A stretch of 64,000 bases of DNA from Paracholeplasma vituli (GCF_025446935.1 NZ_JAOEGN010000004.1:62001-126000), one strand, 5' to 3'. Positions 12,298-44,503 are shown, counted from the stretch's first letter. The notes: generated from the letters alone by a model not told the origin. Numbers and translations are program-made.

Positions 12298-15200
12298 ATG
12301 AAAACGAGACGATTTATTAGATATAGCTGTTTTGTATTAATTTCATTTTACGCAATTTTCGGGATTCTTCGTACCGGAAGATTTTTATCTTTCCACACCG
12401 AGGAATCCCATTTTTTTTCATACAACTCAGAGTTTTTGTCTCAAGCAGGAACCAGCAGTGATCCCTATGTTATTACCTCAAGTGAAGATATGTTAACCAT
12501 CTCATCACTCACGCTAGGTGGAAATAATTTTAGTGGTAAGTATTTCGTGGTTTCAACAGGTATCGATGAGCTCGATTTAGGTGATTTCGTACCAGTCGGA
12601 ACCACAACAAGACCGTTTTTAGGGAACTTTAACGGAAATGGTGTAAGGTTTAGAGTAGCGATCGATAAAACAGCGACCGATAACGTGGGTATATTTGGGT
12701 ATATCCAAAACGGAACGATAGAAAACTTCTCGATATACGGGTCCATCAAAGGCAGAACAAACGTCGGAAGTGCGGTCGGATACCAACAAAGTGGATTGGT
12801 AAGAAACATTTATAACGAAGCGAGAATCGCCGCAGTAGGTTCAAATATTGGTGGAATAGTCGGACAGCTATATAACGGAACAGTGACGTTAACGTATAAC
12901 CGCGCAGAGATTACAGGGGTATCTAATGTCGGTGGAATCATCGGCTATACGTATACCTATACAATGGCATCATCGAGTGTAAGTCATGTCAATAATGTGA
13001 ACAATAACTACAGTTCCGGGACAGTGAGTGGAGACAGTGCAGTGGGGGGCGTAATAGGCGCAAGTTCAGCAGCGAGATACACATCCTCGACGGGAGCGAA
13101 CGCCAGAAACAACAACTACTATGACATCACAGAGATGGCGAACTACGCACAAACCAGAGCTGTAAAACCGAGCAGTTTAGCATCTGCAGAAGGGCTATCT
13201 TCTGGCGTATTCTTCAGTGGAATGAGCGGGAAGCTATCGAGTGGATTCGTATTTGAAGCGATCTCAGATGGGTTTGGATATTACCCACAACTGAGCGTAT
13301 TTTCAAACCATTCGAATGGAACGATCAAAGGGAACTCAAAAGCGAGTGTCCAAGTGGAAATCGGGGATGGATTAGGGACCTCAGATTTACCATTTTGGAT
13401 TAGAACAAAAGAAGATATCGAAGCGTTAAAGTTAAAAGTAGCGAGTGGAAACACATTTGAAGGGTTCTATTTCAAAGTGGAAGACGGCGTGGGACAATTT
13501 GATTTGGGTAATTTTACACCAATCGGGAGTGCGAGCCGACCATTCTATGGCAGTTTTAATGGAAATAACGCAGAATTCAATATAGAAGTGAATCAAAGTG
13601 GATCGAACATTGGATTGTTCGGTTATTTCGGCATCGGAACGATCGAGAATTTATCTATAAAAGGACAAATGATTGGTGGAACGTATGTCGGGGCCGTGGT
13701 CGGGACGATGGTATCAGGGATTGTAAGAAATGTGTATAACCAAGCGGATATCAGTGGGGTATCGTATGTGGGCGGGATTGTTGGGTATTTAACCAATGGA
13801 CAAGTGATTAACGCATACAATACCGGGGATATCTTAGCGAGTGGAGATATCGCAGGTGGTATCGTCGGAAGGATGTATGAAGGGCGAATCGAGCGAACCT
13901 ATAACATGGGCGAAATCATCGGCGCGAGATATGTAGGTGGGATAGTCGGGTATGTACAACAGTACCAAGCATCCACATCGAGTGTAAGTCACGTGAACGT
14001 AATGATACAAAACTATAGTGCAGGGTTAGTGAGTGGGAACGCGGAAGTAGGCGGAGTGATTGGGTATAATAACCCAGGTCGATACACCTCATCGACGCCA
14101 GCGAACGTGAGAACGCATTTGTATTATGACGTGAGTGTATTGGTGAATTACAGACAACCAAGAACGTTAAAACCGGAAGTCCAAGGTCATCCATATGGAC
14201 TAGACGGCAGTGTTTTACTATCGAAAGATCAAATGATAGCCAAAGGGCTTACAGAAGCCAATTGGTATTACGATACAAAAGAGGATAAATACGCGTATTA
14301 CCCACAATTAAGCGTATTTAGAACCCATGAAGAAGCAAGAATCTCAACCGAATCAATTGAATCGGTCAAAGTGGATATCGGGTATGGACTCGGAACGAGT
14401 GCCATTCCATTCTTGATTAAGACAGCAGAAGACATGCATAACCTATCTCAACTGGTGTTAAATGGAAACACGTATTCCGGATTCTATTTCAAAGTGGATG
14501 ACGGGATTTCAGAACTGGATTTAGGTGATTTCGTACCAGTCGGAACCACAACAAGACCGTTTTTAGGGAACTTTAACGGAAATGGTGTAAGGTTTAGAGT
14601 AGCGATCGATAAAACAGCGACCGATAACGTGGGTATATTTGGGTATATCCAAAACGGAACGATAGAAAACTTCTCGATATACGGGTCCATCAAAGGCAGA
14701 ACAAACGTCGGAAGTGCGGTCGGATACCAACAAAGTGGATTGGTAAGAAACATTTATAACGAAGCGAGAATCGCCGCAGTAGGTTCAAATATTGGTGGAA
14801 TAGTCGGACAGCTATATAACGGAACAGTGACGTTAACGTATAACCGCGCAGAGATTACAGGGGTATCTAATGTCGGTGGAATCATCGGCTATACGTATAC
14901 CTATACAATGGCATCATCGAGTGTAAGTCATGTCAATAATGTGAACAATAACTACAGTTCCGGGACAGTGAGTGGAGACAGTGCAGTGGGGGGCGTAATA
15001 GGCGCAAGTTCAGCAGCGAGATACACATCCTCGACGGGAGCGAACGCCAGAAACAACAACTACTATGACATCACAGAGATGGCGAACTACGCACAAACCA
15101 GAGCTGTAAAACCGAGCAGTTTAGCATCTGCAGAAGGGCTATCTTCTGGCGTATTCTTCAGTGGAATGAGCGGGAAGCTATCGAGTGGATTCGTATTTGA

Positions 15201-27200: not shown

Positions 27201-29094
27201 GTCGGAAACGGCTCAATACTATTATCAATTTAGAACTTGGTCGAATATACCGAACACAATCTATCAAAATGTGACCATTGAATCTGTCTATAACCGATTC
27301 TTACAAACTTATACGGTTACCTTTATCGATGATTTAGGTCAAGTCTTAAAAACACAAGAGGTCGAATATGGTACTGGGGCTACTGAACCCGATAACATTC
27401 CTCTAAAGCCAGAAGACCAAATGTATTACTATATTTTCTCAGGTTATAACCGTCCGTTTAACTTTGTTACACAAGACATTGTTGTTCAAACTGTTTATAC
27501 TTCAGTCCTTAGACAATACACATATACATTCTACGCAGATGATCAAACGACAATTTTAAAACAAATGAAAGACGTTTATGGCGCTACCATAACACCACCC
27601 ACTGCACCAATTAAGATTGGTAACGAATACATGACTTATGTATTTGAAGGGTGGACACCAGTGGTGCCTCTACAACTGACTGAAGATATGGATTTCGTGG
27701 CTGTGTATAAAGAAATACTCAAAACATTCCAAGTTATTTTCTTAGATTTCAATGGCAATGTCATTGAAACACAAATTATTAATTATGGTGCAGATGCGAT
27801 AGACCCGACCAAGATTCCAACCAGACCGAAGGATGAACTTTATGAATACAGCTTCCAAGGCTGGGATACCGATACGACCCAAGTTCGAAGTAATCTGATT
27901 GTCAAACCGATTTTTTCTAGACAATTACGCACGTTTATGGTCACGTTCGTTGACTTTGACGGCAGCTTCCTCGCTAAGGTTACGATTGAATATGGTAAGA
28001 GTGCAGCTGGAAAAGTCGTCACTCCAACACGTGAAGGCTACCGCTTCATGAATTGGGATCACGACATCTCCTCAATCAAGAATGATGTTGAAGTGAGAGC
28101 CTTGTATGTTGCGAACGACTATCAAATCAATTTCCATGGTGTATTAACCGAAACCATCGAACCGATTGTGTATGCGTATGGTAGTACGGTAACTTTACCT
28201 AAGATTACCTCCGAACGACGTGGTTATGAATTTACAGGTTGGAAGACCTCAGAAGATCAAACATACATTGAATTTAGTGATGGTGAAACCTTCACAGTTG
28301 AAGAAGAAGGCTTACAACTTTACGCCGAATGGATACCAATTGTGTATAACATCACCTATGAACTCGATGGCGGTTATACAACAAACCCTTCTCAATACAC
28401 CATTGAAGACCATATTGAACTGCAAGGCGCATACAAAGAGGATTATCAATTTGTGGGCTGGTTCTTAGCAGATGTGAAAATGGAAAAAGTAGGTCGTAGA
28501 AGAGCCGTTGACCTAGATACACCGATCACGGAGATTGCAGATGGTTCCATTTTAGGACACATCGTTTTAGTCGCCCGTTATGAATTTGATGGTTACATTA
28601 AACTTAAAGAAGATAGTTTCTTATCGCTAAATTATGCGGAAATCACCAATTTGATACCTATCGTAGATCGTAAGAATGAAGAATCTGAACAGCCTATTTA
28701 CTTAATTGGTGCGTATCAAGGCTTAACGATTGCAGAAATTAAGACGCATTTCGAGAATACGAACCTAGAATTTATCGATTTAAATAACAATCCAGTAGCC
28801 GATTCAAGCATAGTCTATACCGGACTTCGTATCGTCATTCGTGACAAAGCGAACCCAGGTACCTATAAAGATGAGGTTCATGTGATTCTTAGAGGCGATT
28901 TAAATGGAGATGGCAAAGTCAATATCGTCGACTTTAACCAGTTGGATGGTCATGTTACAATGCGAAATCCAATTTCTAACCTCACACTACTTGCAGCCCT
29001 GATTGATGACAACAGCACCATCAATATTGTGGACTTAAACTTACTAGCTGGACATGTTCAAGGAAAAGAATCAATTTTTTCTGAGCATAGTTAG
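12298..29094 (+). CDS. Giant surface adhesin: GLUG blocks, InlB-type repeats, C-terminal dockerin-like domain
   Basis: 5,598 residues in one open frame. An N-terminal hydrophobic segment (about residues 9-24) serves as export signal or anchor. Eleven blocks of 300-420 residues follow, starting near residues 51, 356, 695, 1004, 1344, 1646, 2013, 2316, 2645, 3028 and 3450. Each opens with a G-x-GT-x-x-x-PY-I-(x)-S pattern, continues with many GLUG-type units (GGI(V/I)G followed by YN-x-G or similar), and ends near YYPQL. From about residue 3762 come some two dozen InlB-type repeats of 65-70 residues. Residues 5532-5590 carry a dockerin-like domain with calcium loop DLNGDGKVNIVD. GLUG and InlB repeats are known from bacterial adhesins. 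No C-terminal anchor or LPXTG is present, so it must be retained by its N-terminus or by a partner. The next gene begins 21 bases on. Blocks 1-2 and 3-4 contain exact duplicates. Confidence 0.85.
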   Translation: MKTRRFIRYSCFVLISFYAIFGILRTGRFLSFHTEESHFFSYNSEFLSQAGTSSDPYVITSSEDMLTISSLTLGGNNFSGKYFVVSTGIDELDLGDFVPVGTTTRPFLGNFNGNGVRFRVAIDKTATDNVGIFGYIQNGTIENFSIYGSIKGRTNVGSAVGYQQSGLVRNIYNEARIAAVGSNIGGIVGQLYNGTVTLTYNRAEITGVSNVGGIIGYTYTYTMASSSVSHVNNVNNNYSSGTVSGDSAVGGVIGASSAARYTSSTGANARNNNYYDITEMANYAQTRAVKPSSLASAEGLSSGVFFSGMSGKLSSGFVFEAISDGFGYYPQLSVFSNHSNGTIKGNSKASVQVEIGDGLGTSDLPFWIRTKEDIEALKLKVASGNTFEGFYFKVEDGVGQFDLGNFTPIGSASRPFYGSFNGNNAEFNIEVNQSGSNIGLFGYFGIGTIENLSIKGQMIGGTYVGAVVGTMVSGIVRNVYNQADISGVSYVGGIVGYLTNGQVINAYNTGDILASGDIAGGIVGRMYEGRIERTYNMGEIIGARYVGGIVGYVQQYQASTSSVSHVNVMIQNYSAGLVSGNAEVGGVIGYNNPGRYTSSTPANVRTHLYYDVSVLVNYRQPRTLKPEVQGHPYGLDGSVLLSKDQMIAKGLTEANWYYDTKEDKYAYYPQLSVFRTHEEARISTESIESVKVDIGYGLGTSAIPFLIKTAEDMHNLSQLVLNGNTYSGFYFKVDDGISELDLGDFVPVGTTTRPFLGNFNGNGVRFRVAIDKTATDNVGIFGYIQNGTIENFSIYGSIKGRTNVGSAVGYQQSGLVRNIYNEARIAAVGSNIGGIVGQLYNGTVTLTYNRAEITGVSNVGGIIGYTYTYTMASSSVSHVNNVNNNYSSGTVSGDSAVGGVIGASSAARYTSSTGANARNNNYYDITEMANYAQTRAVKPSSLASAEGLSSGVFFSGMSGKLSSGFVFEAISDGFGYYPQLSVFSNHSNGTIKGNSKASVQVEIGDGLGTSDLPFWIRTKEDIEALKLKVASGNTFEGFYFKVEDGVGQFDLGNFTPIGSASRPFYGSFNGNNAEFNIEVNQSGSNIGLFGYFGIGTIENLSIKGQMIGGTYVGAVVGTMVSGIVRNVYNQADISGVSYVGGIVGYLTNGQVINAYNTGDILASGDIAGGIVGRMYEGRIERTYNMGEIIGARYVGGIVGYVQQYQASTSSVSHVNVMIQNYSAGLVSGNAEVGGVIGYNNPGRYTSSTPANVRTHLYYDVSVLVNYRQPRTLKPSTVVGGQGLEKTSLIGSGMTSRGFSGTDWTFKDIEGFYAFYPQLRVFSTSSSSVVMEDSKDSVKTIPFIGDGTSSSPYIISSAAEMRALSLSISGSYDAFGVYYLVNKNVTDIDLTENFSPIGSLTTPFRGHFDGNYANFVLNINSQQSYQGLFGVTSSEAVIQRLSVSGQLIGSDHIGSIVGLNKGIVSEVYATSGIRGKNHTGGLIGTNEGTLEIGYFTGDVNATLSNIGGIVGTNRGDISQVYAGTTVIGSTHIGGVAGYNEGTIQSAYYDQTKIEYFENSNLNKPIQAIGNMANLSDVKGLEKIQMQGLSIIGSGTYQLDFDSTYWSESNASGMYTYYLQIKGFQSNSQSAIKMKSSQSARTIRFAIGNGTKVNPYIITSEIDMKILSDITKEDTLTGIYFKVEDGITRLDLTQTGLGFNPIGPNSTRPFRGHFDGNNAIIHLNLATSVNYTALFGYVGNDASITNFTVTGSVKGLSYTAGAIGYIQYGRIEKVYNKATIEGTTFTAGIVGDARYSNLKELYNMGNVKGTDKVAGISGSMTKSTLESAFNFGAITGNHFLGGITGYAETNSAISYVYNRNNVIGSGNHVGGILGNLVNGTLDNAYSASMVRGLNAGYIGGIIGRVGGTTVEINSYYDLSIIEADLQANVIKPIRSIGNKLEQLTVKGVEKNQLTGLSIISSESNSTLLKLDESKWVLTADDGVKVHYPQLKLFSEANSAIKADSLSSVSTYIFAGMGTETTPYILLNERDMVRLSNLVQMGNDFENVYFVVRNNLSEMNLTQTGLNYQPIGTPITPFNGVFDGSGVNFRLSLAGNNYQGLFGVVGASATISQLSVSGSITGTEYVGSIAGYNKGTIRNVYSTATIKGSLYTGGILGYHQGTLESVYQNGLVEGVTYTGGLIGYSEGFVKDGYVSSSVFGVTNTGGILGYTSSLTGLDYLYYNSSAIEVLDVLETLKPVKAISNVDDQTNIKGVLMNLLSSGVFGETGISFSNPTNWVVLKASGFDAYYPQLAYFNKHKLSKVIENSTNSVRVNRFTEGDGSLHNPYIIRTNLDMKAISDLSVARMTLEGKYFRVADDIETIDLTVTGLNYLPIGNENYYFQGNFDGNHTQFILSLNQSIYYQGLFGFVGNKAVIRNLSVYGSVYATRFAGGIAGRNRGLIENVYNKATITAKDYHAGGIVGYNEGIIKNAFNTGDVSVSVYHYAGGITGYTVRNTTVEKVFNTGTIKVAGSYAGGIVGYAQGMVSDTYNAGAVLGSNSGMIIGVADGYATVFNSYYNLTTILQTIQTPKALKAISNKADTEVIKGVYTSEMTGDQLQGIKFNADIFVLKPNDGLFGYYPQLKAFLYNTTEHVLNDSIDAVSVPVFVGEGTLNQPFLIYSSADMVALSNLVLQQVDTTDIHFKVFEANKTLDLSPSTLEFKPIGSLNAPFKGHFDGNHATFNLAIDYTHYAALFGVVESTGSISNLSVKGSVKGTDYVSGVVAFNKGAVENVHNEARIEGLNYVSGIASVNSGTLELVTNKGEIKGQTYTAGITAINQNTIELAYNMTNIQGASYTAGVVSKNETDARMMFVFNYGHLQASNRYLGGVVAVNRGSLIHFYNRGDLTSQENFVGGVVALNHGTVQDGYQASKIMGINDLGGISALNLGSIDSVYYDTSLIEYTKVSSPYTKPSQAIYSGDQSGDIKALTTEEMTSLYAIGTNEDQMNLSIEWSLKLGSDFISYYPELYVFKNAEPKYSSDSLKSITRNVFTGAGTLLDPYLIYDGYDMKTIGDYVKKDIDFTNKYFKVAEGIQTIDLSDAELMYDPIGTDQSYFNGTFDGNKALFTIMFNNPNQDYMGMFHTLGTKALIKNLTIQGTIHGRSYLGGLASRNMGSIEFVTNLVNITSTTGTSTGGIVAVNSGTIRQSVNKGNITLRGSFVGGIAGENEGTIALSYNKGIIDGDTSVGGIAGMNTKIIQTSYNTEKVTGNTQIGGIAGVNYNAISESYNMGSIIAKVGIVGGIAGLNQSTTLQASIINSYNTGAIQSLGNLAGGLVGLMSSGMLSDLYNAGSVFGLSEVGAIIGQRTTGTTVRAYYDLNILENSSSTIGIKPTKAISNIDNTTTLKGLYRGQMAGMNAIGMSVRQMNFSNPALFAMTASHDMWSYYPQIKAFTTNSSVDVRNDSMLSVRGKTFIYGEGTNDNPYILNSESDVIALSETVNSGNDYRGVYFKVSPTVSEFNFVDAEEQYFLFAIGTETAPFNGTLDGSGVNFKLNIEQNKNYQGLFGHVGEYGHLHSFSVSGTVSGLDYTGAIAGMNRGIIETVYNQANVTGRNYTGGLVGQTFELIKNAYNRGKVIGNQYVGGIAGGVDGIIQNTYNTGIIYGKNTVGALAGMFNSGVIEFSYYDTRILNAYSAPKGYIKPSIAVGTAFNSDTVKGLDKSFMTGVNALGTDEFQMNFIEGTNLWSAAYNIEAMQNYPQLTLFSRASSAHTKSLSMASTQTELFEITLDYKGATEQNTVSKVYVIPNEYYQLPVPFKFGFELVGWYYLNNEATRIQYTQANGESIQVYSHNDSITLEAQYKVAIHKVEFIDGNGNVIEEVQISHGDYVTEPLEIPTKNPSYDKVFFFKQWQFDFSTRITTSLKIEATYEEKNRYFKLTYFDGNDQFMADILIEYGTLATPLSTIPEKQFEGQSAYEFEKWDYDFTKEVFENAEVYPIFKTVDRYYQVTFLDVNSNILEQVLVEYGKDAKTAHIPEKEMDDRYIYEFSGWSQDISSVKKAMTVSPIFNALDRYYVVRFLDGNDDVLETQYIKFLEAAQAPAITPQKAYTEMDAYKFLGWDQAFDHIVKDTDIRATFTRVDRYYTITYIDGDGSILDTVTVEYLTEASQPSKEPSKAMTLENIFIFSGWSVDLTQVQSNLIAYAEFTTELRPYTVYFMDGNNEVFEAQEVLYGQNAKVPTGIPRKAAILDIAYKFDGWLGSLTNVRADRYIESTYVEVDRYYIVTFYGYETDIVLKSEQVEYGYAATAPEAPVKPHHLVGYENYFINWNKAFDFVESDLEVHANYGSRIKTYEVKIVNGDETTYQMVEHGKNAILPEPSKTNTDQYTYTFIEWDQSPLNITSDRIITAVFETTTNYFTVTFVNYDGQVLSTQIVIRGENAVEPEHPLRPSTPNKVYIFSTWNKNFNEVESDLTIEALYDEFDRYYEVRFEYEDGTLIQTSTIEYGQSAYAPKDITKASTDQYDYAFMGWDHAFEVVKSNLVIKPIFEENLRHYEVRFYDGDDQLIETQIIAYGSSAILPKVATKTPTSDTYYVFKGFNHTGQNITSNTEIIAEFDAVDRYYQVVFIDRHGTIINEQTIEYGKAAIDPIKSLNYEIVDANTIYTIVGWNQSFNEIKKNEIIEGIYETLPRYYVVNFYSETGVLFQTQTVEYGRSALDPGIPVKADTLTHFYVFDSWSNPFDYVTKNIDINAEFIEKNKSYQVVFLDGNNLVFDVQIVLYGEDAITPNGIPTKSNTTDKTYRFTGWDRAYDNITENLTVYALFESDVRLYTVRFVDEEGRLMKEVLVPYGASATPPSDIPNKPSTDAYDYKITWSRPYTNITQNIEVKLVYEAVIREYTYRFLDAQGLPIKTVKAPYGSQITVPGNPTKPMTEKYEYLFVGWSPDVPELLTKDIDFTPYFEEKLREFEVIFLDGDGKTFNTQWVKYGAKPVVPLGIPTKSETAQYYYQFRTWSNIPNTIYQNVTIESVYNRFLQTYTVTFIDDLGQVLKTQEVEYGTGATEPDNIPLKPEDQMYYYIFSGYNRPFNFVTQDIVVQTVYTSVLRQYTYTFYADDQTTILKQMKDVYGATITPPTAPIKIGNEYMTYVFEGWTPVVPLQLTEDMDFVAVYKEILKTFQVIFLDFNGNVIETQIINYGADAIDPTKIPTRPKDELYEYSFQGWDTDTTQVRSNLIVKPIFSRQLRTFMVTFVDFDGSFLAKVTIEYGKSAAGKVVTPTREGYRFMNWDHDISSIKNDVEVRALYVANDYQINFHGVLTETIEPIVYAYGSTVTLPKITSERRGYEFTGWKTSEDQTYIEFSDGETFTVEEEGLQLYAEWIPIVYNITYELDGGYTTNPSQYTIEDHIELQGAYKEDYQFVGWFLADVKMEKVGRRRAVDLDTPITEIADGSILGHIVLVARYEFDGYIKLKEDSFLSLNYAEITNLIPIVDRKNEESEQPIYLIGAYQGLTIAEIKTHFENTNLEFIDLNNNPVADSSIVYTGLRIVIRDKANPGTYKDEVHVILRGDLNGDGKVNIVDFNQLDGHVTMRNPISNLTLLAALIDDNSTINIVDLNLLAGHVQGKESIFSEHS
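12574..14175 (+). repeat. Exact direct repeat, copy 1 (1,602 bp)
   Basis: Residues 93-626 of the giant adhesin. It matches 14518-16119 base for base in every line I compared, and the encoded 534 residues are identical. The first mismatch on the left is base 12573 (C against G); on the right, identity ends after 14175. Confidence 0.93.
14518..16119 (+). repeat. Exact direct repeat, copy 2 (1,602 bp)
   Basis: Residues 741-1274. It lies 1,944 bp (648 codons) downstream of copy 1, with a 342-bp unique segment (14176-14517) between the copies. Because the period is a multiple of three, loss or gain of one unit keeps the frame. Confidence 0.93.
23566..28590 (+). repeat. About two dozen InlB B-repeat-like domains in the giant adhesin
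   Basis: Each unit of about 65-70 residues reads RYY-x-VxFxDGxGxxL, then a VEYG strand, a P-x-KP or IPTK segment, a YxFxGWD core and an IxAxFE strand. The last two units (about 28114-28590) are closest to canonical Listeria-Bacteroides repeats (GYEFTGWK; ITYELDGG). The units are all diverged in DNA, so this array is old, unlike the exact 1.6-kb duplication. Confidence 0.8.
28891..29073 (+). other. Dockerin-like domain at the C-terminus of the giant adhesin
   Basis: Two tandem calcium-loop segments. The first, DLNGDGKVNIVD, is a full 12-residue dockerin/EF-hand-like loop (Asp1, Asn3, Asp5, Asn9, Asp12), followed by the helix FNQLDGHV. The second, LIDDNSTINIVD, keeps Asp3, Asn5, Asn9 and Asp12 but has Leu for Asp1, followed by LNLLAGHV. 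The internal symmetry (NIVDxNxLxGHV twice) is the hallmark of type I dockerins. Confidence 0.8.
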
Positions 29095-29115
29095 AGTATT
29101 ACATAGGAGATTTTT

Positions 29116-32100
29116 ATGAAAAAAACATTTATTCTTGGAATAATGATACTTTTAGGGGCTTTACTTTTGATAAAGCCCTCCCAAGAAGTACAAGCATCAA
29201 ATCCATCCACTATATCTTTTTCGATGGTAGAATCTACAACTGGAAAATCACGACTAACCTTAGCAGAACTCAAGTCTGCTGTAGTTAATACTTATATATC
29301 ATTTGATATTGTCGCAACTGCTATAGGTGAACCTCGAAAGATGAGTGCTTTCGCAGGAAATGTCGTATGGACAAACAATAAGTTCCTTTATAACAAAATT
29401 GAATCTGCTAAAGATCAATATTATGATGCAGATTTCGAAGAAAACCATGATGTCAACTTATGGAAAGATCCGTTCTTTACTGCCCAATCAGATAATGCAA
29501 GTGGACATAAAGTGGGTTTCGTTGGGGCTATTTACTCCCCGGTGAGCCCGACATTCCCTGATGTACCTGGATATGGTTTATCAGAGACAATTTCAACCTC
29601 AGGAACCAAGATTTTGAAAGTGACTTTTAGAATTACCAATACAAATTTAAACTCACTAACAACTTCGGATGTCATTGATTTTAGTTTTGTCATGGATGAG
29701 GCTGATTCCAACCATACAGCTTACGATATCATTAGTAAGTACGAATACCCTAAAACCACGATGAGTTTTAGTGGTTTCGTAACAGGGGAACCAATCACTG
29801 AGAAATCAGCTGATCTAACTGGTATCAGTTTAAAAGGTATTGGAAACACCGAGTATATCTCCGGTTTTTCTACATCAACGATTACATATAATCCGACATT
29901 AAGTTATCAAGATAGTTTGGATGATTTAACCCTTCTAACTACAAAAGCGAGCTCAACTGCAGTTGTAGATATTAAGAAAAATGGTGTTTCGATGGTCGGA
30001 AGTACAGTAGTTGGTCCTTTTGAGCACAACGACATTATTACTGTCAGTGTAACAGATGATGACTTAACTAAAGATTACATTATTCAAGTAGCTGTGTTAC
30101 CACCTTCTACAAATAATAATCTAGCATCACTTACTACAAGCAGTGGGTCATTATCGCCAGTATTTGCACAAGGTACAACCAGTTATGTACTAGATTTACC
30201 TTATGCAATAACTTCAACTACGCTATCAGCTACACTCTCAGACTCAAAAGCCAGTCTCAAAATAAATAACATAGTTCGTAGCAGTTTGAGTCTTTCAAAC
30301 ATCGCTGTTGGGGATACAATAGTTACTTTTTCAGTGACCTCAGAATCACTCGTTACGAAGATCTATACCGTAACAGTAAGACGTCAAGTACCGTCTTCTA
30401 ATACCGATTTAACATGGTTGAATGTCAACGGTGAAAACGTCTATTTAGACGGTGAAACGAGTTTCTCTAAGACATTATTGGAAACCCAGACATCCTTTCA
30501 ACTCAACATCAAACCCGAAGAAACTACTGTAAAAAAAATCGAGTATAGTACCAATGGTGGGACCTCCTATAACACCATTGGACAAGCTGTAAACTCGACT
30601 TCATTTACCGTTTCTAAGGGCCAACAAATCACATTTTCCATTCGTGTGACTGCCCAAGATGACACCATTCAAATATATCAGTTGTTGGTCGAAAGGCCCC
30701 TATCTAGTAACACTGAAATCAAAACTTTAACTGTAAAAGAAGGCCAAACAACCTATGAAATTGCCAAAGTAGGATCTGTGTATACCTATACGCTTAAGGA
30801 TGCACTATCTAAAGAACTGTTACTAGATGTCATCGGTAAAGAAACAGGAACCACCTTTGAAGTATATAAAGATGGTACTTTAATCGATCCATTAGTGTCG
30901 ATTGATGGTATATTAGCGGGCACACATACCTACACTATTAAAGTGATTGCTGCTAACGGGGTTAGTTATACTGAATACACCTTTAACATCATCAAAAAAT
31001 CGAGTGAAAAAGACATCATCGATTTAAAACTTTATGACGTTGGTGATAATTATGCGGATTTGGGTGGTTTAACCTTTAATTCAATAACTCAAACCTATTC
31101 AGCATCGCTTCCATTCTCAATCAAACAAATCCAATTGGTATTGACCGCTTCCGAAAAAGCGCTCATCACCAGAATCAGTGGGATTACTATCAACAATGGT
31201 GGTCAAAACACCATTAACGCCGTGCACAACTATACCTTATTTACTGCTGAAATGGCACAATTGGTTGTGCGTGTAACCGCTGAAGATGGTTCTATCGCGG
31301 AATATACATTTACAATCACTAGAGCAGCGGCTTCTACAGAACGTAGTCTTGATGAGTTCGCAATCAACGGGCAAACCGTGGATGGGTTCATCCCAGGACA
31401 ACCGCCAATCAGTGGTGGATATGGAACTATCGTGCTACCAGGGACAACCACAAGTATTACAGTAGATGCTGTAGCGAAATCCACTCTCGCAACCATTACT
31501 TATAATGGATCTGATAATCCAAATATCAACTTAGTTAGAGGGGTCAAACAAACCATTACAGTTCGAGTAACTGCAGAATCTGGTATGTATTACGAGTATA
31601 AAGTCGATGTGATTGCTGCTAACACAGACAATACCATCAGTAATATCATTATTCGTGATGCGAACGGACAACCGTTGGCTTTATCATTTGCTCCTGAAAC
31701 AACAACTTATACCTTATCTGTTCATTTTGCTATTTCCATTGTGAATATTCAAGTGACAACTCCGAATTTATCATACTCTGTGGTTACTACAGGAGCGGAC
31801 AATTCAGGGAATCGCTTAATCAATACAGGCTATAACAAAATTGTCATTTTCGCTACCTCTGAAGCGGGTACTAAGGGTGTTGAATATACCGTTGAAATCA
31901 CTCGCAATGCAGCGCGAACGGACAATAACTTAACCTCACTCACGATTTCATCGAGCGGGGCTTCGAATCATGGACTCACACCGAACTTTATCGCTTCACA
32001 AACTAATTACGATCTTCGCGTTGATGATATTATCTCAGGTGTAACCGTGTCAGCTAGTGTCAACCCTGATAATGGTGCATCGATCATCAGTGGTAATGGT

Positions 32101-38100: not shown

Positions 38101-39714
38101 CAGGCTAGTAGCGATACGACATTATCCAACTTAGTCGTTAAAACGGCTAAAACAGGAGATACGATTGCATTCTCACCAGGATTTAACCCAACGACTCGAG
38201 AATACGTAATCCAAATTCCGAGTGGTACCTCACTCAATATGATTTATATTGAAGCAATCGCAAATCACAAAAACGCCATTATTAGTGGCGATGGTAATCG
38301 GATATTAAACGCACTTGTTAATGGCGAATACCACACAGTCATCCAAGTATTGGTCATGGCTGAAGATGGTTCTGTAGGGACTTATACAATTAGTATCTAC
38401 CGTTCTGTTGAATTGAATAAAGATGTCACGATAAGCAAACTTGAACTGGTTTCTAACTTAGGTATTCAATACTTAGGAACAAGTGGTGCACTTGTTGATT
38501 TTGATTACTTAATTCAAAATTACACGATTGAAGTACCCCACAATGTCACCTCAATAACACTTAATATCCAAACACTTTCAGCTACCATTTATGGTACAGG
38601 TACAAAAGTATTTGGTAGTCAAACTGAACTTATCTTTGAATTCTATTTAGTCTCTCAAGATGGCAGTACTGAAAGCAATCATTACACGATTACAGTGCGA
38701 AAACAAACAGCAAACGCCGATAATTTACTCAGTGATTTATCGGTTGACTTAAAGACCATTCAAGGTTTTAGTCCGACCCAATATGCTTATGAACTTACCA
38801 TCCCAACCGCATCAAAATCAACATTAAGCTTTGGTGCTATCGCGAATGACCCAGCTGCATCCTTATCAGGTGATTTGGGTACGAAGATTCTAACAGAGGG
38901 GAAAAATATATTCCATGTCCATGTCATCGCCCAAAATGGTACTATTCAAACCTATACCATCGTTGTGAATTATGTTCAAAGTAATGCCTTACTTTCCTCA
39001 CTACTCGTAAAACTGTCCACATCGACTATTTACGATGATACGAATGCGGTTATTTTGGAAAGCTTAACCTTTACACCAGGTGTAACCGATTATTTACTCC
39101 AAGTGGATAAATCCTTCGCATCCGCACGTGTTACTGGGTATGCGCAAGACCAAGCAGGGGCTCAAGTCATGGGCTTTGGTAACTATCAAATCGTAACCGA
39201 TGAAACCGAAATTCGCATTTTCGTGAAATCAGCGGATGGTAGTGAATCCTTGATGTATCGTGTACGACTAGTTAAGAATGCAATACCATCAGCAAACGCA
39301 CAATTGAAGTCACTATCGATTGGTGGTTATGGTATCGCATTTGATCAAAATACGTACCATTATCAAATTAAGTTAAATCCGAAAACAGATAGTTTAAACA
39401 TGAGTGCTGAAACATTTGACCCGAATGCGAAAGTAGAACTCCTTGGGTACACCAATGGCAATGCCTCGCATCAACTATCCACCTCCATATCCAATGTACC
39501 ATCTGGTGAAAATACGTTGATCATTCGCGTAACTGCCGAAAATGGTAATATCAATTACTATTATCTATCGGTTGCGAAAGAAGCACAAACCGATTACTTA
39601 TTAACGATTTTACTCGTCCTTACTGTAATGATGTGGATGGTAACGGTCGTATTCTTCTTGGTTAAGCAATCAAAATCGAAGAAGAAATCCATCTATCAAA
39701 GAAATATCATCTAG
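29116..39714 (+). CDS. Giant membrane-anchored stalk protein: cohesin-like domain plus ~34 cadherin-like repeats
   Basis: 3,532 residues; TAGGAGAT is the ribosome site and the gap from the first giant is 21 bases. An N-terminal signal peptide (hydrophobic FILGIMILLGALLL, likely cleaved near VQA-S) is followed by a ~190-residue beta-rich domain resembling cohesins, then about 34 tandem units of ~95 residues matching the cadherin-like beta-sandwich (PF12733) pattern: L-x-x-L-x-V, a GF or SF turn, TxxYxLxVP, GxG or GNG, and an AENGxxxTYTIxVxR end. A single membrane helix (about residues 3494-3516) and the basic tail KQSKSKKK close it. It is therefore a type I surface protein with its N-terminus far from the membrane. 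A structured hairpin, not a classical terminator, separates it from the next gene. Repeat count is by eye, plus or minus two. Confidence 0.85.
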   Translation: MKKTFILGIMILLGALLLIKPSQEVQASNPSTISFSMVESTTGKSRLTLAELKSAVVNTYISFDIVATAIGEPRKMSAFAGNVVWTNNKFLYNKIESAKDQYYDADFEENHDVNLWKDPFFTAQSDNASGHKVGFVGAIYSPVSPTFPDVPGYGLSETISTSGTKILKVTFRITNTNLNSLTTSDVIDFSFVMDEADSNHTAYDIISKYEYPKTTMSFSGFVTGEPITEKSADLTGISLKGIGNTEYISGFSTSTITYNPTLSYQDSLDDLTLLTTKASSTAVVDIKKNGVSMVGSTVVGPFEHNDIITVSVTDDDLTKDYIIQVAVLPPSTNNNLASLTTSSGSLSPVFAQGTTSYVLDLPYAITSTTLSATLSDSKASLKINNIVRSSLSLSNIAVGDTIVTFSVTSESLVTKIYTVTVRRQVPSSNTDLTWLNVNGENVYLDGETSFSKTLLETQTSFQLNIKPEETTVKKIEYSTNGGTSYNTIGQAVNSTSFTVSKGQQITFSIRVTAQDDTIQIYQLLVERPLSSNTEIKTLTVKEGQTTYEIAKVGSVYTYTLKDALSKELLLDVIGKETGTTFEVYKDGTLIDPLVSIDGILAGTHTYTIKVIAANGVSYTEYTFNIIKKSSEKDIIDLKLYDVGDNYADLGGLTFNSITQTYSASLPFSIKQIQLVLTASEKALITRISGITINNGGQNTINAVHNYTLFTAEMAQLVVRVTAEDGSIAEYTFTITRAAASTERSLDEFAINGQTVDGFIPGQPPISGGYGTIVLPGTTTSITVDAVAKSTLATITYNGSDNPNINLVRGVKQTITVRVTAESGMYYEYKVDVIAANTDNTISNIIIRDANGQPLALSFAPETTTYTLSVHFAISIVNIQVTTPNLSYSVVTTGADNSGNRLINTGYNKIVIFATSEAGTKGVEYTVEITRNAARTDNNLTSLTISSSGASNHGLTPNFIASQTNYDLRVDDIISGVTVSASVNPDNGASIISGNGYHPLTSGQITPIQIVVESEAGVRKTYTVNVKRANNDYALSQITIAGQTYLVSSFDINQVLQLSTAPYSDKSYLVNIILNDPNASYTVSSNYAQGVWTLSDNINELVINVRAQDGTLNPKPYIIRINRTPADVTKTLSNLEVKVGSGANMLLGFNESIFGYTLRVDRSVTNVSITPTLKSNKSTYEISPDLSTPLNLTPSNQTLYRIRVYNEAKTDFTDYTVTIIRADDTHQITGITANRGNAFTFNATTLTYDLGTVPFIIKDITFNITKPSTASIKINGYEMTFPYKLTLEQGKNVFEIQAFSEYGNSGDIYVFEIIQQAPSTDAGLVDLLVKTGSTILINEATPIANNIYKVRVDNPISFVDITYAKSNVNALVSISPNNGGTLNLGVNSFTIVVTAEDGITVKYYRIEITRGNDNNDFHDVTIDGVPLVDISTYDSLTNTYTLNSAFPFDKTTILIDAVLEDSFASLYGIGSKNLNFGTNTYSIYAVSEVGTKSTVLNIKVNRTNPNTDSKLDGLSVQGLAFDGVVFDPYLTTYTITLPTSDTRTQIQILATVNAVPGNMKKISGDVGIKTLPTTSGFSVQYVITVTAEDQSTTQYTINVLKNTTVSTDASLDSVEIDGVSIPYSSFTGNILELDPVLFSKKNIEITVKPTSDKATVSGQQGIRTLVNGINSFKFKVIAQDGVTGSTVEYEIRFVRLTASTDDTLKSLNLIHNGQSILTGFNPLTNSYTLSIDRSNPEIDLQFEVNHLGQRVTGNTGIQTLIPGIDNVLKVFVESESGSIRTYTIIVSVKDTDNTIEEIHIDGIDRLSDFNNQSLDLGSVAYAINQIQISALSGTYAVITGNGTFNLSVGFNTLKVYATSESGVKGTVFTITITRNPMDSNNKIDDLYVTDGLNTLPFDEGAFVSTTKQYTITLPKSNTLTKVTVVATPNNPNYIPTGVGEKVLQVISGVVNQTLTVSVQSEDGQVNTYTINIIREANPILSSDYQIKDAQILGKSVNYLLTFNTNVAKQTAITVPFNVDVVQLALTIADKATLVDNNNFKNYNITPGQTITITFQVRAENGDLGLRYEMDVTREVGSSNNTLEALTIEIDGVLMTLDPSKLTQRVTVGSNANLIKLDGQIPATASVIGFGEYSVNDSPFVITVTAENGEKKNYIVQIDVLDENNTVSEIRVDGIDKLADFTNEMLIVNVPFSKTTLDIVAIPESVKAVITGNGQKTLVVGVNTFKVYATSQMGLKGLEYTLIINRANPDSNHAFTQIKVTDGNETLPFVEGLFTPLTKSYHVVLSPESNLTAIVIEASPSNPLYSVTGVGVKTLQIVKGVIQMEFVVSITAENGDINSYTIYVDKEAKPLQSDTEIQSVSLIGNGFNYLSDFDPLKALQNKITLPYGTNAVQLIVGLPIGATLVDQNNLRMIYFTPGQIQTIEFQVRAENGNLGLRYQVEVERSLPRIENTLESLYVIIEGVKTDLDVNKLIHTLTTSSLSSITIGGDIPEGAVVAGFGTFGIKQGPFVISVMAENGQTKNYIITMNVQDDNALMKEIQIDSVNRIGEFINDKLTLVVPYEKTSIKMNGIAESLEATVTGNGTFNLNVGLNAFTLYVTAESGLEGTYYVVEITREHADNNAYLKSLIVKDVLTNTILDYAPVFNKTGLYYALDLTALPSVGEIEILAEADSLKSVVTGTGIYTLKTQTGVSTERFTVSVKAEDGTTLTYELVVTRNVLPEDDVTITNLFVIGNDTITYLGTNTESLNTFSNTTLNYTITVPFGLKTINFVANNANGGVVSGTGIYALDADYTKPTILSFFVTSKSGKISETYTVTIEKMAPDSNNDLLSLLINNKPLEGFRADTLSYQLQLNHETNTTIAFAASASSTKAKVSGNIGTFDLLHGKNTYYIYVESEEGIVKTYTVVVDALSSLNALLDLSVKNFSITPAFNANTTNYQLTVPYNQQTIEILASTHPYAKLQGTGLKSLSTGSNVFVVYAVAENGNIGTQYQITVDRSQASSDTTLSNLVVKTAKTGDTIAFSPGFNPTTREYVIQIPSGTSLNMIYIEAIANHKNAIISGDGNRILNALVNGEYHTVIQVLVMAEDGSVGTYTISIYRSVELNKDVTISKLELVSNLGIQYLGTSGALVDFDYLIQNYTIEVPHNVTSITLNIQTLSATIYGTGTKVFGSQTELIFEFYLVSQDGSTESNHYTITVRKQTANADNLLSDLSVDLKTIQGFSPTQYAYELTIPTASKSTLSFGAIANDPAASLSGDLGTKILTEGKNIFHVHVIAQNGTIQTYTIVVNYVQSNALLSSLLVKLSTSTIYDDTNAVILESLTFTPGVTDYLLQVDKSFASARVTGYAQDQAGAQVMGFGNYQIVTDETEIRIFVKSADGSESLMYRVRLVKNAIPSANAQLKSLSIGGYGIAFDQNTYHYQIKLNPKTDSLNMSAETFDPNAKVELLGYTNGNASHQLSTSISNVPSGENTLIIRVTAENGNINYYYLSVAKEAQTDYLLTILLVLTVMMWMVTVVFFLVKQSKSKKKSIYQRNII
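29206..29790 (+). other. Cohesin-like N-terminal domain of the stalk protein
   Basis: Residues ~31-225. A TYISFDIVA strand, then KMSAFAGNVVWTNNKFLYN (the cohesin-like stretch in which a chain like AFQ-x-x-LxYDxxxLxF is usual), a VGFVGAIYS strand, and TKILKVTFRITN followed by a VIDFSFVMD strand. Cohesins often sit at the N-terminus of PF12733 repeat proteins. The match is by pattern only, with no conserved catalytic residues to check. Confidence 0.5.
29800..39585 (+). repeat. About 34 cadherin-like beta-sandwich repeats
   Basis: Units of 90-105 residues from about residue 229 to 3485. Repeat starts read DNNLTSL, DASLDSV, NNTLEAL, DTTLSNL and similar; ends read EDGTxxTYxLxVxR. They are diverged in DNA and I saw no long exact duplicates between them. 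Some adjacent groups alternate in a longer two- to three-unit order (for example the units containing GKSVNYLLTF and GNGFNYLSDF), which points to older multi-unit duplications. Confidence 0.75.
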
Positions 39715-39777: not shown

Positions 39778-41160
39778 ATGCAACTATTCAGTAACGCAAC
39801 AAACACACTGTTTCTCTCATTATTATTCGTAATCGTGCCCACAACATTTGTTATAGTTCTATATTTAGGGATTCGAAAGCTCAAGAAAGAACATGCCATT
39901 CAAAAATTCGATGTTTTGAATGATGTGGTCAAATTAGATGAATTCATCGAATACACAGAACATCGACTTAAAATGCACCCTGACAAATGTCATTTGCTAG
40001 GATTGCTCAGTTTAGATGATTTCGATCAACTCTATGAGCATTTGACAGAAAAACACATTCAAGCCTATCTTCAAAGTGTCGGGAAACACATCCGAATGAA
40101 TTTACCGAAAGGTGGTAAATTGTGTCAAACCAAAGAACGAGAAACATTTCTAATCTATATTCCTGTCTTGGAGGATGTACCGAACATCGCAGCCTTAGAA
40201 CGCATTCACAAAGCTTCCTCTAAACGGGCTTATTTGGATAATCAACTCAAAGTTGTCAGAGCGTCGACGTTAGTTTACACCTTAAAAACGAATGAAAATG
40301 AAAAGTTCAGTCAACTCTTTAGCCAATTAGAAGACATGCTTTATTATTGTAAACGGCAAGGTGGAAACACCCTAACAAAGTTTGACCCATCGATTGATTT
40401 ACGTTCGATGAATACCGTACGCTATAAGGAAATGAAGGATGCGATTAAAAACAAGCGCTTTGAATTCACGTTTGAACCCTTTTATGGATTCATCGATGAA
40501 AAAATTTATGGGTCCTCTGTATCCATTCATTATAACGATACATCACGTAAAGGTTTAAGCATTACCGAACTCATATTACTGCTAGAAAGTTCTAAAGATA
40601 TGGTTTGGTTTGGTAAATGGCTTATTGAAAAAGCCATTGAGCAGAGTCTAAATGTCTACAGTGCCATGCACAATGAATCCTACTACACTGTAATCCCAAT
40701 CGGTCTCCAACAGCTTGAGAGCAATGGATTTGCTCATTTTATGGAAACCCTCTGTTTAAAATATCAAATTCATCCCTCGAAATTGATTTTGGATTTAACC
40801 AATCCAAGACCGAGCTTATATCAAAATGAGTTTGATCAAAACCTACACTTACTTAAAAAAATGGGTATGGGCTTAATTATTCAAGTTGACGCCAATGAAC
40901 TCGTCTTTAAACAGCATTATCAATTGATTAAACCGACCATTTTAAAATACGATATTTCATTGATCGAACGTTTAGAATCGCAGGGTTGGATCAAGCAATT
41001 CCTCCAAGAATTTAAGAGTGTCGTCACGAATGTGACAACTAAACAACACTTAGAAATATTGAAATACTACAATATTACATACGTTCAAGGCTCTTTCTAT
41101 GGAAAGAAAATCGATGCGGATGATTTATTAAACATCATCAGCTTAAATCGTTTGTCTTAA
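39778..41160 (+). CDS. Membrane protein with degenerate GGDEF and EAL domains
   Basis: 460 residues; ribosome site AGGA five bases before the ATG. One N-terminal membrane helix (residues ~11-31), a region about 45-210 with the length and strand order of a GGDEF domain but KERETFLIYIP where RxGGDEF is expected, then about 220-455 with an EAL-domain layout. In the EAL part the key positions are lost: YGSSVSIHY for the EAL motif, IPIGLQQ for the NLS Asn, LDLTNP for ExTES, QVDANEL for the DDFGTG loop; KYDISLI matches KIDRSFI and YVQGSFYGK matches the QGYLFS end. Catalysis on c-di-GMP is therefore not expected; a nucleotide-sensing or scaffold role is possible. It follows the stalk gene by 63 bases and precedes the AAA+ gene by 25. 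Confidence 0.7.
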   Translation: MQLFSNATNTLFLSLLFVIVPTTFVIVLYLGIRKLKKEHAIQKFDVLNDVVKLDEFIEYTEHRLKMHPDKCHLLGLLSLDDFDQLYEHLTEKHIQAYLQSVGKHIRMNLPKGGKLCQTKERETFLIYIPVLEDVPNIAALERIHKASSKRAYLDNQLKVVRASTLVYTLKTNENEKFSQLFSQLEDMLYYCKRQGGNTLTKFDPSIDLRSMNTVRYKEMKDAIKNKRFEFTFEPFYGFIDEKIYGSSVSIHYNDTSRKGLSITELILLLESSKDMVWFGKWLIEKAIEQSLNVYSAMHNESYYTVIPIGLQQLESNGFAHFMETLCLKYQIHPSKLILDLTNPRPSLYQNEFDQNLHLLKKMGMGLIIQVDANELVFKQHYQLIKPTILKYDISLIERLESQGWIKQFLQEFKSVVTNVTTKQHLEILKYYNITYVQGSFYGKKIDADDLLNIISLNRLS

Positions 41161-41185: not shown

Positions 41186-42715
41186 ATGGAAAGATATGCA
41201 CAATGGTTCATCGATTTTGTCTTAGAATGGACGAGACGACTCGGTTCCTTTTTCACTGAGATTTTTCGTCTTTTCAAATACACATTCTGGGATGTTTTAG
41301 TTAAACTTTATCAAGATTTTCGCACAGCTACTATGCAATTTACACCGATTGATTGGGGATTAGCCATTTTCTCATTGATTGTCATGACGTTGTTGTATGT
41401 AGGTGTATTTATTCTCTTTTATCAACTCATTCGTAAATACGTTCGATTCACAAAAATTGACAAGTCTAAAGAAGAACTCCTCTTTGAAATGAGCGTTTTA
41501 GAACAAAATATCTCAGCTATTTTAGATGAGAAAAACGCGATAGTAGCGCTCTCAAATGAAGCCACAACGAAAGAGACATCACAACCGATGAATGGATCTT
41601 CTAAACGGGTTTTAGATGTATCGAATCGTTTTCCAAGACTGACAAAGATTGATCAATCGTATCAATATAAACCACTTCAAGTCAAGAGTAATCTCGAGTT
41701 AGAAAATGTTTTATCTTTAAGCGCTCTCGTGGAACGCTTCATCAACTTCTCAGCATCCAACTTAAAACTCTACTATACCAAGAAAACCATCTCGATCTTT
41801 TTCGCAGGGATGGCCTCTTCAAAAACCATGATTCTTGAAGGTATTTCTGGGACTGGTAAAACCTCATTACCGTACGCAATGGGGAAATTCTTTAAACAGG
41901 AATCCAAAATCATTTCAGTCCAACCCTCTTGGCGTGACCGTTCTGAAATGATGGGCTATTTTAACGAATTTACGAAGAAGTTCAATGAAACCGACTTTTT
42001 AGCTGCTGTGTATGAAGCGACGTATCGAAATGATTTAAATTTCATCGTACTAGATGAAATGAACTTAGCGAGAGTAGAATATTATTTCGCTGATTTCTTA
42101 TCCTTACTCGAAATGCCAAATCCAAATGAATGGCGCATCAACATTGTTCCAGTTCAGTACCCAGACGACCCAAAAAATCTAATTGAGGGTAAACTCATCA
42201 TTCCTCAAAATGTCTGGTTTATCGGAACCGCGAACAAGGATGACTCGACCTATACCATAACCGATAAGGTTTATGACCGTGTCGCATCCATTGAAATGAA
42301 CCATAAAGCCGTTGTTGTGAACGCACCATTGACAGAAGGTGTACACTGTACGTTTGAAGATTTCCATAAACTCATTCAAGAGGCGTTTATTCAAAAACCA
42401 ATTTCGAACGATACAGTTTCTAAGTTGAAACAATTGGATGACTACATCGTTAGTAAGTTCAATATTGCTTTTGGTAACCGTATCATCAAACAGATTCATG
42501 CATTTATCCCAGTTTATGTCGCCTGCGGGATGAATGAAATCGATGGTTTAGATTATATTGTAAGCCGTAAAATCATCCGTAAGTTTGAATCCCTCAACTT
42601 GCCATTCTTAAAGAATGAACTCGTTGAACTCATCGACTATATTTACACGCTCTTTGGTAAAGAAACATTCCCTGAAAGCGTCGCGATGATTCAGACCTAC
42701 ATGCGTCAGTACTAA
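41186..42715 (+). CDS. Membrane-anchored McrB-like AAA+ ATPase
   Basis: 509 residues; AGAAAGGG lies six bases before the ATG. One clear membrane helix (residues ~58-82), a short coiled/linker region to ~170, then an AAA+ domain of the McrB/dynein-like (AAA_5) branch: Walker A GISGTGKTS (219-227), a VQPSWRDRSEMMGYFN segment typical of this branch, Walker B IVLDEMNLARVEYY (Asp290-Glu291), sensor 1 FIGTANKDDS (Asn350) and DKVYDR with a candidate arginine finger. McrB proper is soluble, has an N-terminal DNA-binding domain and works with the nuclease McrC. Here the N-terminus is a membrane anchor, and the partner encoded seven bases downstream has no visible nuclease motif. A restriction role is unlikely; an inner-membrane remodelling or assembly motor is my inference. 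Confidence 0.8.
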   Translation: MERYAQWFIDFVLEWTRRLGSFFTEIFRLFKYTFWDVLVKLYQDFRTATMQFTPIDWGLAIFSLIVMTLLYVGVFILFYQLIRKYVRFTKIDKSKEELLFEMSVLEQNISAILDEKNAIVALSNEATTKETSQPMNGSSKRVLDVSNRFPRLTKIDQSYQYKPLQVKSNLELENVLSLSALVERFINFSASNLKLYYTKKTISIFFAGMASSKTMILEGISGTGKTSLPYAMGKFFKQESKIISVQPSWRDRSEMMGYFNEFTKKFNETDFLAAVYEATYRNDLNFIVLDEMNLARVEYYFADFLSLLEMPNPNEWRINIVPVQYPDDPKNLIEGKLIIPQNVWFIGTANKDDSTYTITDKVYDRVASIEMNHKAVVVNAPLTEGVHCTFEDFHKLIQEAFIQKPISNDTVSKLKQLDDYIVSKFNIAFGNRIIKQIHAFIPVYVACGMNEIDGLDYIVSRKIIRKFESLNLPFLKNELVELIDYIYTLFGKETFPESVAMIQTYMRQY

Positions 42716-42721
42716 TGGATC

Positions 42722-44503
42722 ATGATGAAAAGAAAATACGATATTGAGTTATTTAATGAAATTACAAGGTCTCACATTGACGAGGCGGTCGATGATACCG
42801 AGTTTCCGCACCATGTATTGGCCTCGATGGCTGACGGTGAAACTGAATTTTCATTAAAACGCTTAACCAAAACCGTCAAGTTTGATGACTTATGGATTAA
42901 AGTTATTGAAAACTACATTCCGAGTTTAATCCGAATTACAAAGAATCTTAAATCCACCTTAAGATATGATGCCGATATCATCCCGATTGAAAAAACCAAA
43001 CGGGTCGATGTCGATTCGATTAAACATTTACTAGCGAATACGCAATACATTCAAGAAATCAATGATCAGGATGAAGTGTTGCCTCAAAAACTACTCTCGA
43101 ATTTATCTGAAATTGAATATGGGATTTATGAAAATAGATTGATTGCTTCCTTAATCCAACGCTTAAAGCGTTTCGTTGAACACCGCATTCAAGCGATGAG
43201 GAATCATTTGGATTCGGTTTCACAAGGTGAATTCAATGCGACCTCAAAATTTCTATTTGGGGAGACGAAATATACCGTTAAGCTTCAAATTGTAGAAGAA
43301 TGTGATACGTTCGATGAAGAAACATTAAAGTATAACTTAGGTATCATTGAACGCGCAGAGGAACTCGACAAACATGTCAGTGCTTTATTGAATACACAGT
43401 TTGTTCAAATCATGAAGCGTTATCGCTTGGTAACGCCACCCATCATGAAAACCCAAATTATCCTAAAAAACCCTGATTATCGAAATGGGTATTTACTTTG
43501 GCTATTCTTAGACAAGAACAACCACTTTGAATTAGATTCAACGACGAATCCAACAGAAACCACATTCAAATCAAGATACCGTATGGAGATTGAACAACAA
43601 TTATTGTTATTATTTACGATGCATTTGGCGAATGAACCTACGGAATACTTAGAGAATCCAGTGAATCTAGACGATGTAACTCCAAAGAATTTATCCAGCT
43701 ATTTGCATAGCGATTCCGAATTTACAGCCGATACAGAATCTGAAATTATTCGGTATCTCGAACAGCTCACAGAATTAGAACGCAGCGAACATGATGTTAT
43801 CTTAAATGAGAATGTCGTAGAAGAAACTACGCTTTATGAGACGATTAATCCTAACTTTCCGATTGACGATGCACCAATCGAAATGGATTTGGGTGCGATG
43901 GCATCATCGATTGAGACTGCAGTTTTAGACGAAACGTTCAAAGCAGATCTTGATAACTTAAACCAAAGAAGCCTCGACGCATTGAAGGACATGGAAGACT
44001 CAAGTGCTATCGAACTGAATTTAGAGGCGTTAAACGATCAACTGATTGATTTAGCTCATAAAGCCAGTCAAATCGGTATGATTTATGAACAGGCAATCAC
44101 TTTAGAAGTAAAAGCACTTGAAGCCTACAAAGAAGCCACTCAAAAACTCATTGATCAAGCCAAAGTGGAAGCAAAAGTAACTTTAAAAGAAAAACTAAAA
44201 ACGCTTGAAAAAATGTATCAAGACAGTAAAAAAGATGCACTTAAAGCGCTGGATTTACGTTATAAGAGTGAACTGGACGCGATACGAAAACAGCTTTCTA
44301 CCAATAAGAAAAGAGCGGATGATCAGCTTTTGTTTAATGAGCGTGCTTTAAAACAAAAAGAAAAATTGCGTCTACATAACGCGAAACGCAATCTAACGGT
44401 CAAACTCGAAGATTCCAAACTCCGCCATAAGAAGAGTTTAGAAGAAAAAGTGCTCACACATAAACAAGCTCTCGTTGAAAGTCAAAGTAAAAACAAAAAA
44501 TAA
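42722..44503 (+). CDS. DUF2357-like protein with long C-terminal coiled coil
   Basis: 593 residues; ATGATG at the start, six bases after the stop of the AAA+ gene, with little Shine-Dalgarno, so translation is probably coupled. The N-terminal ~330 residues resemble DUF2357, the region found in McrC-like partners of McrB-type ATPases: a YGIYENRLIASL segment (YENR at 136-139) and later NPDYRNGYLLWLF. The middle is acidic. The last ~170 residues are a strong Lys/Glu/Leu-rich coiled coil ending KNKK. I find no PD-(D/E)xK nuclease motif or other catalytic site. It is likely the cytosolic partner of the upstream ATPase. A strong terminator follows, which marks the end of the surface locus. Confidence 0.7.
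   Translation: MMKRKYDIELFNEITRSHIDEAVDDTEFPHHVLASMADGETEFSLKRLTKTVKFDDLWIKVIENYIPSLIRITKNLKSTLRYDADIIPIEKTKRVDVDSIKHLLANTQYIQEINDQDEVLPQKLLSNLSEIEYGIYENRLIASLIQRLKRFVEHRIQAMRNHLDSVSQGEFNATSKFLFGETKYTVKLQIVEECDTFDEETLKYNLGIIERAEELDKHVSALLNTQFVQIMKRYRLVTPPIMKTQIILKNPDYRNGYLLWLFLDKNNHFELDSTTNPTETTFKSRYRMEIEQQLLLLFTMHLANEPTEYLENPVNLDDVTPKNLSSYLHSDSEFTADTESEIIRYLEQLTELERSEHDVILNENVVEETTLYETINPNFPIDDAPIEMDLGAMASSIETAVLDETFKADLDNLNQRSLDALKDMEDSSAIELNLEALNDQLIDLAHKASQIGMIYEQAITLEVKALEAYKEATQKLIDQAKVEAKVTLKEKLKTLEKMYQDSKKDALKALDLRYKSELDAIRKQLSTNKKRADDQLLFNERALKQKEKLRLHNAKRNLTVKLEDSKLRHKKSLEEKVLTHKQALVESQSKNKK

Follow-up and report, generated by a model that had tools for sequence, protein, structure and literature searches.

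The window analysed here, 64,000 nucleotides of Paracholeplasma vituli (GCF_025446935.1, NZ_JAOEGN010000004.1:62001-126000; positions are counted from its first letter), carries two adjacent genes for very large proteins, here called the giant (5,598 residues) and the stalk (3,532 residues). An earlier note on this DNA had proposed that the two are held together by a dockerin at the end of the first and a cohesin at the start of the second. The two open reading frames (ORFs) lie as it described, 21 bases apart on the same strand, and a Shine–Dalgarno-like AGGAG precedes the ATG of the stalk gene.

Two neighbouring giant genes and a C-terminal dockerin

From N- to C-terminus the giant consists of a 19-residue hydrophobic helix, GLUG repeats (Glug, 45.3 bits), Flg_new/List-Bact (InlB B-type) repeats (Flg_new, 131 bits; both Pfam), a pre-dockerin domain and a dockerin. 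It has no C-terminal membrane anchor, as the note had stated: a hydrophobicity scan of its C-terminus gave no hydrophobic segment. The stalk begins with a signal helix bearing a convincing cleavage site (VQA↓SN, residue 27), followed by an N-terminal domain (the N-domain), ~34 cadherin-like domains (35 stretches by a local hidden Markov model (HMM) vs 17 by Pfam) and a single C-terminal membrane helix, again in agreement with the note. No penicillin-binding transpeptidase is encoded in the genome, in line with a wall-less cell.

The isolated C-terminal 127 residues of the giant match Pfam Dockerin_1 (PF00404) with 23.4 bits (E 7e-5; cut-off 22.9), and the top matches in a PDB sequence search are dockerins; in a genome-wide search the domain scored 21.8 bits, slightly under the cut-off. 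Homologues of this dockerin score up to 55.6 bits. It is the sole dockerin of the 1.86-Mb, 99.99% complete genome. Of the two calcium-binding loops that the note described, the first (DLNGDGKVNIVD) is canonical, with all calcium ligands present; the second (LIDDNSTINIVD) starts with Leu, Asp1, the first calcium ligand, being missing, and keeps D/N at positions 3, 5, 9 and 12, so that the two-loop description holds in full for the first loop only.

A type I dockerin consists of two halves that resemble each other, it can engage its partner in either of two orientations, and the residues that make the contact are known (PMC4728124). The halves of the window's dockerin are VNIVDFNQLDGHV and INIVDLNLLAGHV. 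In 12 paired dockerins we compared the halves at the variable recognition positions: identity was 0.70 when both halves came from one protein and 0.19 when they came from different proteins, and none of 100,000 permutations in which the second halves were shuffled reached the observed match. At the published contact positions (eLife.10319, PMC4728124), with the register to the published numbering set by eye, the values are 0.69 vs 0.20 (0 out of 50,000 permutations). The dockerins thus show, at their recognition positions, the internal two-fold symmetry by which type I dockerins are recognised. Halves that are matched within a protein yet drift between species point to one selected partner per species, and, as far as sequence comparison can tell, the symmetry is as expected of a working two-sided dockerin. 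The distances among the dockerins also track those among the N-domains to an extent that the AAA tree does not account for (partial r 0.45, p 0.005, ten genomes), in a permutation that controls phylogeny only in part.

Two further observations concern the N-terminal part of the giant. Positions 12568-14175 and 14512-16119 of the window form a 1,608-base direct repeat within its gene, 99.9% identical (two mismatches), a recent duplication of GLUG-region sequence that suggests length variation of the giant. About 20 residues past the N-terminal helix, the paired giants of L010, L007, L069 and L143 (L numbers are loci, G numbers genomes) share the motif RRxPxYATxFLSExGT, possibly a processing or folding signal, which is largely lost from the window's giant.

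Table 1. Positions, strand and supporting evidence of the features in the window
Feature	Position	Strand	Basis
Giant surface protein, 5,598 residues	12298..29094	+	ORF and translation
Giant N-terminal membrane helix, residues 6-24	12313..12369	+	Hydrophobicity scan; cleaved signal or signal anchor
Conserved pre-dockerin domain (YTGLRIVIRD...)	28585..28890	+	Alignments; kept in paired giants
Type I dockerin domain	28891..29091	+	Dockerin_1 match; PDB dockerin matches; internal symmetry test
Stalk protein, 3,532 residues	29116..39714	+	ORF, Pfam, hydrophobicity scan, local HMM
Stalk N-domain, residues 28-228, proposed dockerin receptor	29197..29799	+	Always beside dockerin-ended gene; cohesins in the G033 slot
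Stalk C-terminal membrane helix, residues 3493-3518	39592..39669	+	Hydrophobicity scan; only one
Membrane protein with degenerate GGDEF and EAL domains	39778..41160	+	EAL E 4e-20, GGDEF E 2e-7
Membrane-anchored McrB-like AAA+ protein (Walker A GISGTGKT, LDEMNLARVEYYF, NKD)	41186..42715	+	Domain search, motifs, position
DUF2357 (McrC N-terminal-like) protein, coiled-coil-like charged C-terminus	42722..44503	+	DUF2357 30 bits; conserved position

The pair in other Acholeplasmatales

A profile search with the N-domain (the profile was built from three, then eleven, sequences) found this family in exactly 11 out of 160 genomes of Acholeplasmatales, one copy in each, and in no further genomes when 395 genomes of the class were searched. 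The earlier note had named recurrence of the pair in relatives as support for its idea, and the pair does recur: in all 11 genomes the N-domain gene directly follows a dockerin-ended gene on the same strand. Besides the window's genome these are G001 and G004 (same genus), G013 (Acholeplasma equifetale ATCC 29724, also of Acholeplasmatales), G016, G017, G019, G020, G021, G023 and G027, so that the paired loci span five genera and two families of the order. None of the 11 complete loci lacks the domain of one partner, the finding that by the earlier note would have spoken against its idea; the fragmented loci of G012, G022 and G029 are outside this count. A separate scan of genome contigs matched one locus, that of A. 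equifetale. The giants of G001 and G004, both of the other same-genus members with a dockerin in a giant ORF, have 6,240 and 6,258 residues and each adjoins a stalk gene. The eleven N-domains are mutually homologous, with BLASTP links down to 1e-115 and 12–27% identity to the window's domain.

In genome G033 the giant is homologous to that of the window (E 2e-15) and ends in a dockerin (40.7 bits), and the next gene encodes a signal peptide, two Pfam cohesins (44.4 bits) and cadherin-like repeats (138.9 bits). Recognised cohesins thus fill the slot that the N-domain occupies in the window, and we consider this homologous pair, on sequence grounds, the strongest point in favour of the interpretation given below.

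A dockerin-ended gene beside a receptor-start gene is a general habit in the order. For example, genes for a subtilase with a dockerin lie next to genes for membrane-anchored proteins with three cohesins at the start in G126, G103, G016 and G018 (L132, L133, L134 and L135), where the pairs probably serve surface protease docking. They resemble the window's pair in having a dockerin-ended secreted protein beside a membrane-anchored receptor protein, but the client is a protease instead of a giant repeat protein, and the cohesins are recognisable and come in threes.

What the dockerin may bind

Judging by these sequences and their pairing, the dockerin tip and the N-domain probably bind each other, and we are fairly confident that the giant and the stalk are partners coupled in this way into a non-covalent two-part surface fibre or link. 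The dockerin on the free C-terminal tip of the giant would bind the N-domain at the free tip of the stalk, whose C-terminus anchors it in the cell membrane; the contact would be non-covalent, probably calcium-dependent, and the resulting fibre may be adhesive.

Several results weigh against this coupling. The earlier note inferred a cohesin identity for the N-domain, which our searches did not bear out: sequence searches of Pfam, NCBIfam and PDB gave no match to it, whether the single sequence or the 11-sequence profile was used. Cohesins fold as a nine-stranded jelly roll. For the N-domain, AlphaFold (AF2), run twice on two-sequence alignments, reached a predicted local distance difference test (pLDDT) score of 46 and 39; the model at 46 (predicted TM-score 0.53) is largely beta apart from one or two short helices, and Foldseek (PDB, BFVD) with these low-confidence models returned varied beta-sandwiches and no cohesin among the top matches. 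A cohesin profile scores the N-domain 17–20 and the neighbouring stalk domains 15–21, and HMM scores separate it weakly (p 0.05, 0.02) from 126 decoy windows of the stalk. On the side of the dockerin, Asp1 is missing from loop 2 in 7 of the 12 paired proteins, the window's among them.

The cohesin profile PF00963 likewise gave no match in the window's N-domain or in the relatives tested, and for this reason we do not class the domain as a cohesin. An hhalign comparison of the N-domain profile with 14 cohesins of the order (score 20.0, 0 out of 150 column permutations) was discarded as evidence, since the adjoining domains of the stalk reach similar values (15.4 and 21.0). Comparison of the N-domain with cohesins gave in-register fragments only; its strand pattern (DVxIDVxVKSI, LxAMQAxW, RIATLAF) looks cohesin-like by eye, which is an impression only. 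The N-domain is, in our reading of the sequences, a proposed dockerin receptor of probable cohesin type.

The same contact could be made in a second geometry, depending on whether the N-terminal helix of the giant keeps it anchored in the membrane or whether, once released, the giant is held through the dockerin alone. We found no acceptable signal-peptidase I site behind this helix, and a plausible one in few of the giants of nine relatives, whereas such sites, A-X-A-like, are clear in almost every stalk; both proteins may therefore be anchored and meet tip to tip. An anchored giant would be a type II membrane protein, and the contact would form either in cis, as a loop on one cell, or as a zipper-like bridge between cells. 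The sites were scored with a home-made -3,-1 rule, which is crude and is not SignalP; non-canonical cleavage is possible, and the giants of G013, G004 and G033 do have plausible sites. We give this sub-case of the coupling appreciable weight, somewhat less than an even chance. As for the topology in the earlier note, the anchoring of the stalk by its C-terminus stands, and a giant held solely by its dockerin is doubtful, the N-terminal helix being a possible signal anchor.

It is unlikely that the dockerin binds some other receptor in the cell, with the N-domain in another role (e.g. ligand binding at the tip) and the two genes being neighbours merely as genes for surface proteins. The N-domain's lack of a recognisable cohesin sequence and its uninformative fold prediction would suit such an arrangement, but a PF00963 search of the whole genome of the window found no cohesin (a divergent one could escape the profile), the N-domain family is never found without a neighbouring dockerin, and recognised cohesins occupy the same slot in G033. 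It is very improbable that the dockerin, instead of being a binding module, is either a relic or a cap stabilised by calcium: the incomplete second loops and the low score of the window's dockerin fit it, whereas halves that match at the contact positions within a species and diverge between species are not expected of a relic. Overall, the observation in the earlier note is confirmed and the coupling it proposed is supported in part, by the dockerin, the pairing and the G033 cohesins; the support does not extend to the receptor fold or to a single-anchor topology.

Operon context and known systems

Three more genes follow the stalk. The order giant, stalk, GGDEF/EAL-like protein, McrB-like AAA+ protein and DUF2357 protein is shared by the window and each of the nine further loci whose sequence continues, the GGDEF/EAL-like protein being the third gene in each of the nine. 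Cyclic di-GMP (c-di-GMP) turnover by this third protein was ruled out, as the GGDEF and EAL signature motifs are absent on inspection. The AAA+ proteins of these loci are 48–57% identical, and the AAA protein is present in 97 out of 160 genomes of the order.

In CoCoPALM systems, which are linked to pilus assembly, a GTPase of McrB-like type forms one protein with a membrane region that is FtsB-like (PMC11090510). By domains and motifs, the AAA/DUF2357 genes of the operon appear to fit this class: the AAA+ protein is membrane-anchored and McrB-like and has the NxD motif, and its DUF2357 partner has a coiled-coil-like tail. The window's operon differs in holding the dockerin/receptor giant pair and in having no signal peptidase gene. 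A paralogous operon with the same trio does lie beside signal peptidase genes and TasA-like proteins; it is found in the window's genome (G000:C42, L184, ~0.6-12.9 kb of the locus) and in the four others whose loci were read (G003, G006, G014 and G036; L185-L190, L192), and it holds GGDEF/EAL proteins, three secreted proteins with TasA/SipW-type ('TSTFAWFT'-type) signals and SipW-like signal peptidases. From its gene content it looks like a CoCoPALM plus TasA-type fibre operon of Acholeplasmatales. The presence of the trio in two surface operons supports a role in surface structures, and for the same reason we think a phage-defence function of AAA/DUF2357 (PADLOC candidate PDC-M26A) less likely.

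We put forward only tentatively a wider proposal, in which the five-gene locus of Acholeplasmatales would build a giant apparatus from oppositely anchored proteins, perhaps between cells, with a new receptor class that is unrecognisable by sequence, and with the CoCoPALM-type AAA+ protein and the GGDEF/EAL-like protein controlling or assembling it (compare the TasA-like operon).

Cohesin–dockerin contacts rank with the strongest non-covalent bonds known between proteins; to our knowledge, they have been studied almost only in cellulosomes. In general, cohesins and dockerins are known from outside cellulosomes too. In the literature we searched we found no paper describing such a dockerin/receptor coupling of two giant surface proteins. 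If true, it would be a natural, non-enzymatic example of the cohesin–dockerin contact, conserved and one-to-one, in which two giant surface proteins of a wall-less cell are joined and which relatives of Acholeplasma apparently share for building a surface fibre. It would explain how such a cell, having neither wall nor outer membrane, could hold a protein of 5,000–6,000 residues. The McrBC-like machines of CoCoPALM would also be tied to a defined surface structure.

The pair shares with the type I cohesin–dockerin system of the Clostridium thermocellum cellulosome (PMC4728124) a C-terminal dockerin with two F-hand halves that are symmetric at the contacts and, as proposed for the window, a receptor beta-domain on a surface-attached protein. 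It differs in that no enzymes, multi-cohesin scaffoldin or cellulose-binding module are seen in the pair, the receptor is missed by the cohesin profile, loop 2 is degenerate, and the cell is wall-less with a membrane helix as anchor. With one dockerin and no PF00963 cohesin genome-wide, the genome does not have the multi-cohesin scaffoldin and dockerin-bearing carbohydrate-active enzymes of a cellulosome. Systems of the LapA/LapD type are giant adhesins controlled by c-di-GMP. The window's giant is likewise encoded with a membrane protein of GGDEF-EAL fold whose catalytic motifs are lost; neither a LapG protease nor type 1 secretion was identified, the phylum and the envelope are different, and retention would be by a dockerin and not by a retention plug.

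Other dockerin genes were noted in the order. G145, G148, G152, G146, G142 and G110 (L074, L075, L082, L083, L087 and L080), of another family of the order, have dockerin-ended open frames of 10,680 to 17,173 codons, most of these genomes being without a recognised cohesin. G003 and G002, which belong to the window's genus and are without the giant pair, have an ORF of 1,088 residues (L011 and L012) with a cohesin (40.9 bits), a dockerin and an oligopeptide-binding-like domain, next to a gene for a lipoprotein with a cohesin-like C-terminus.

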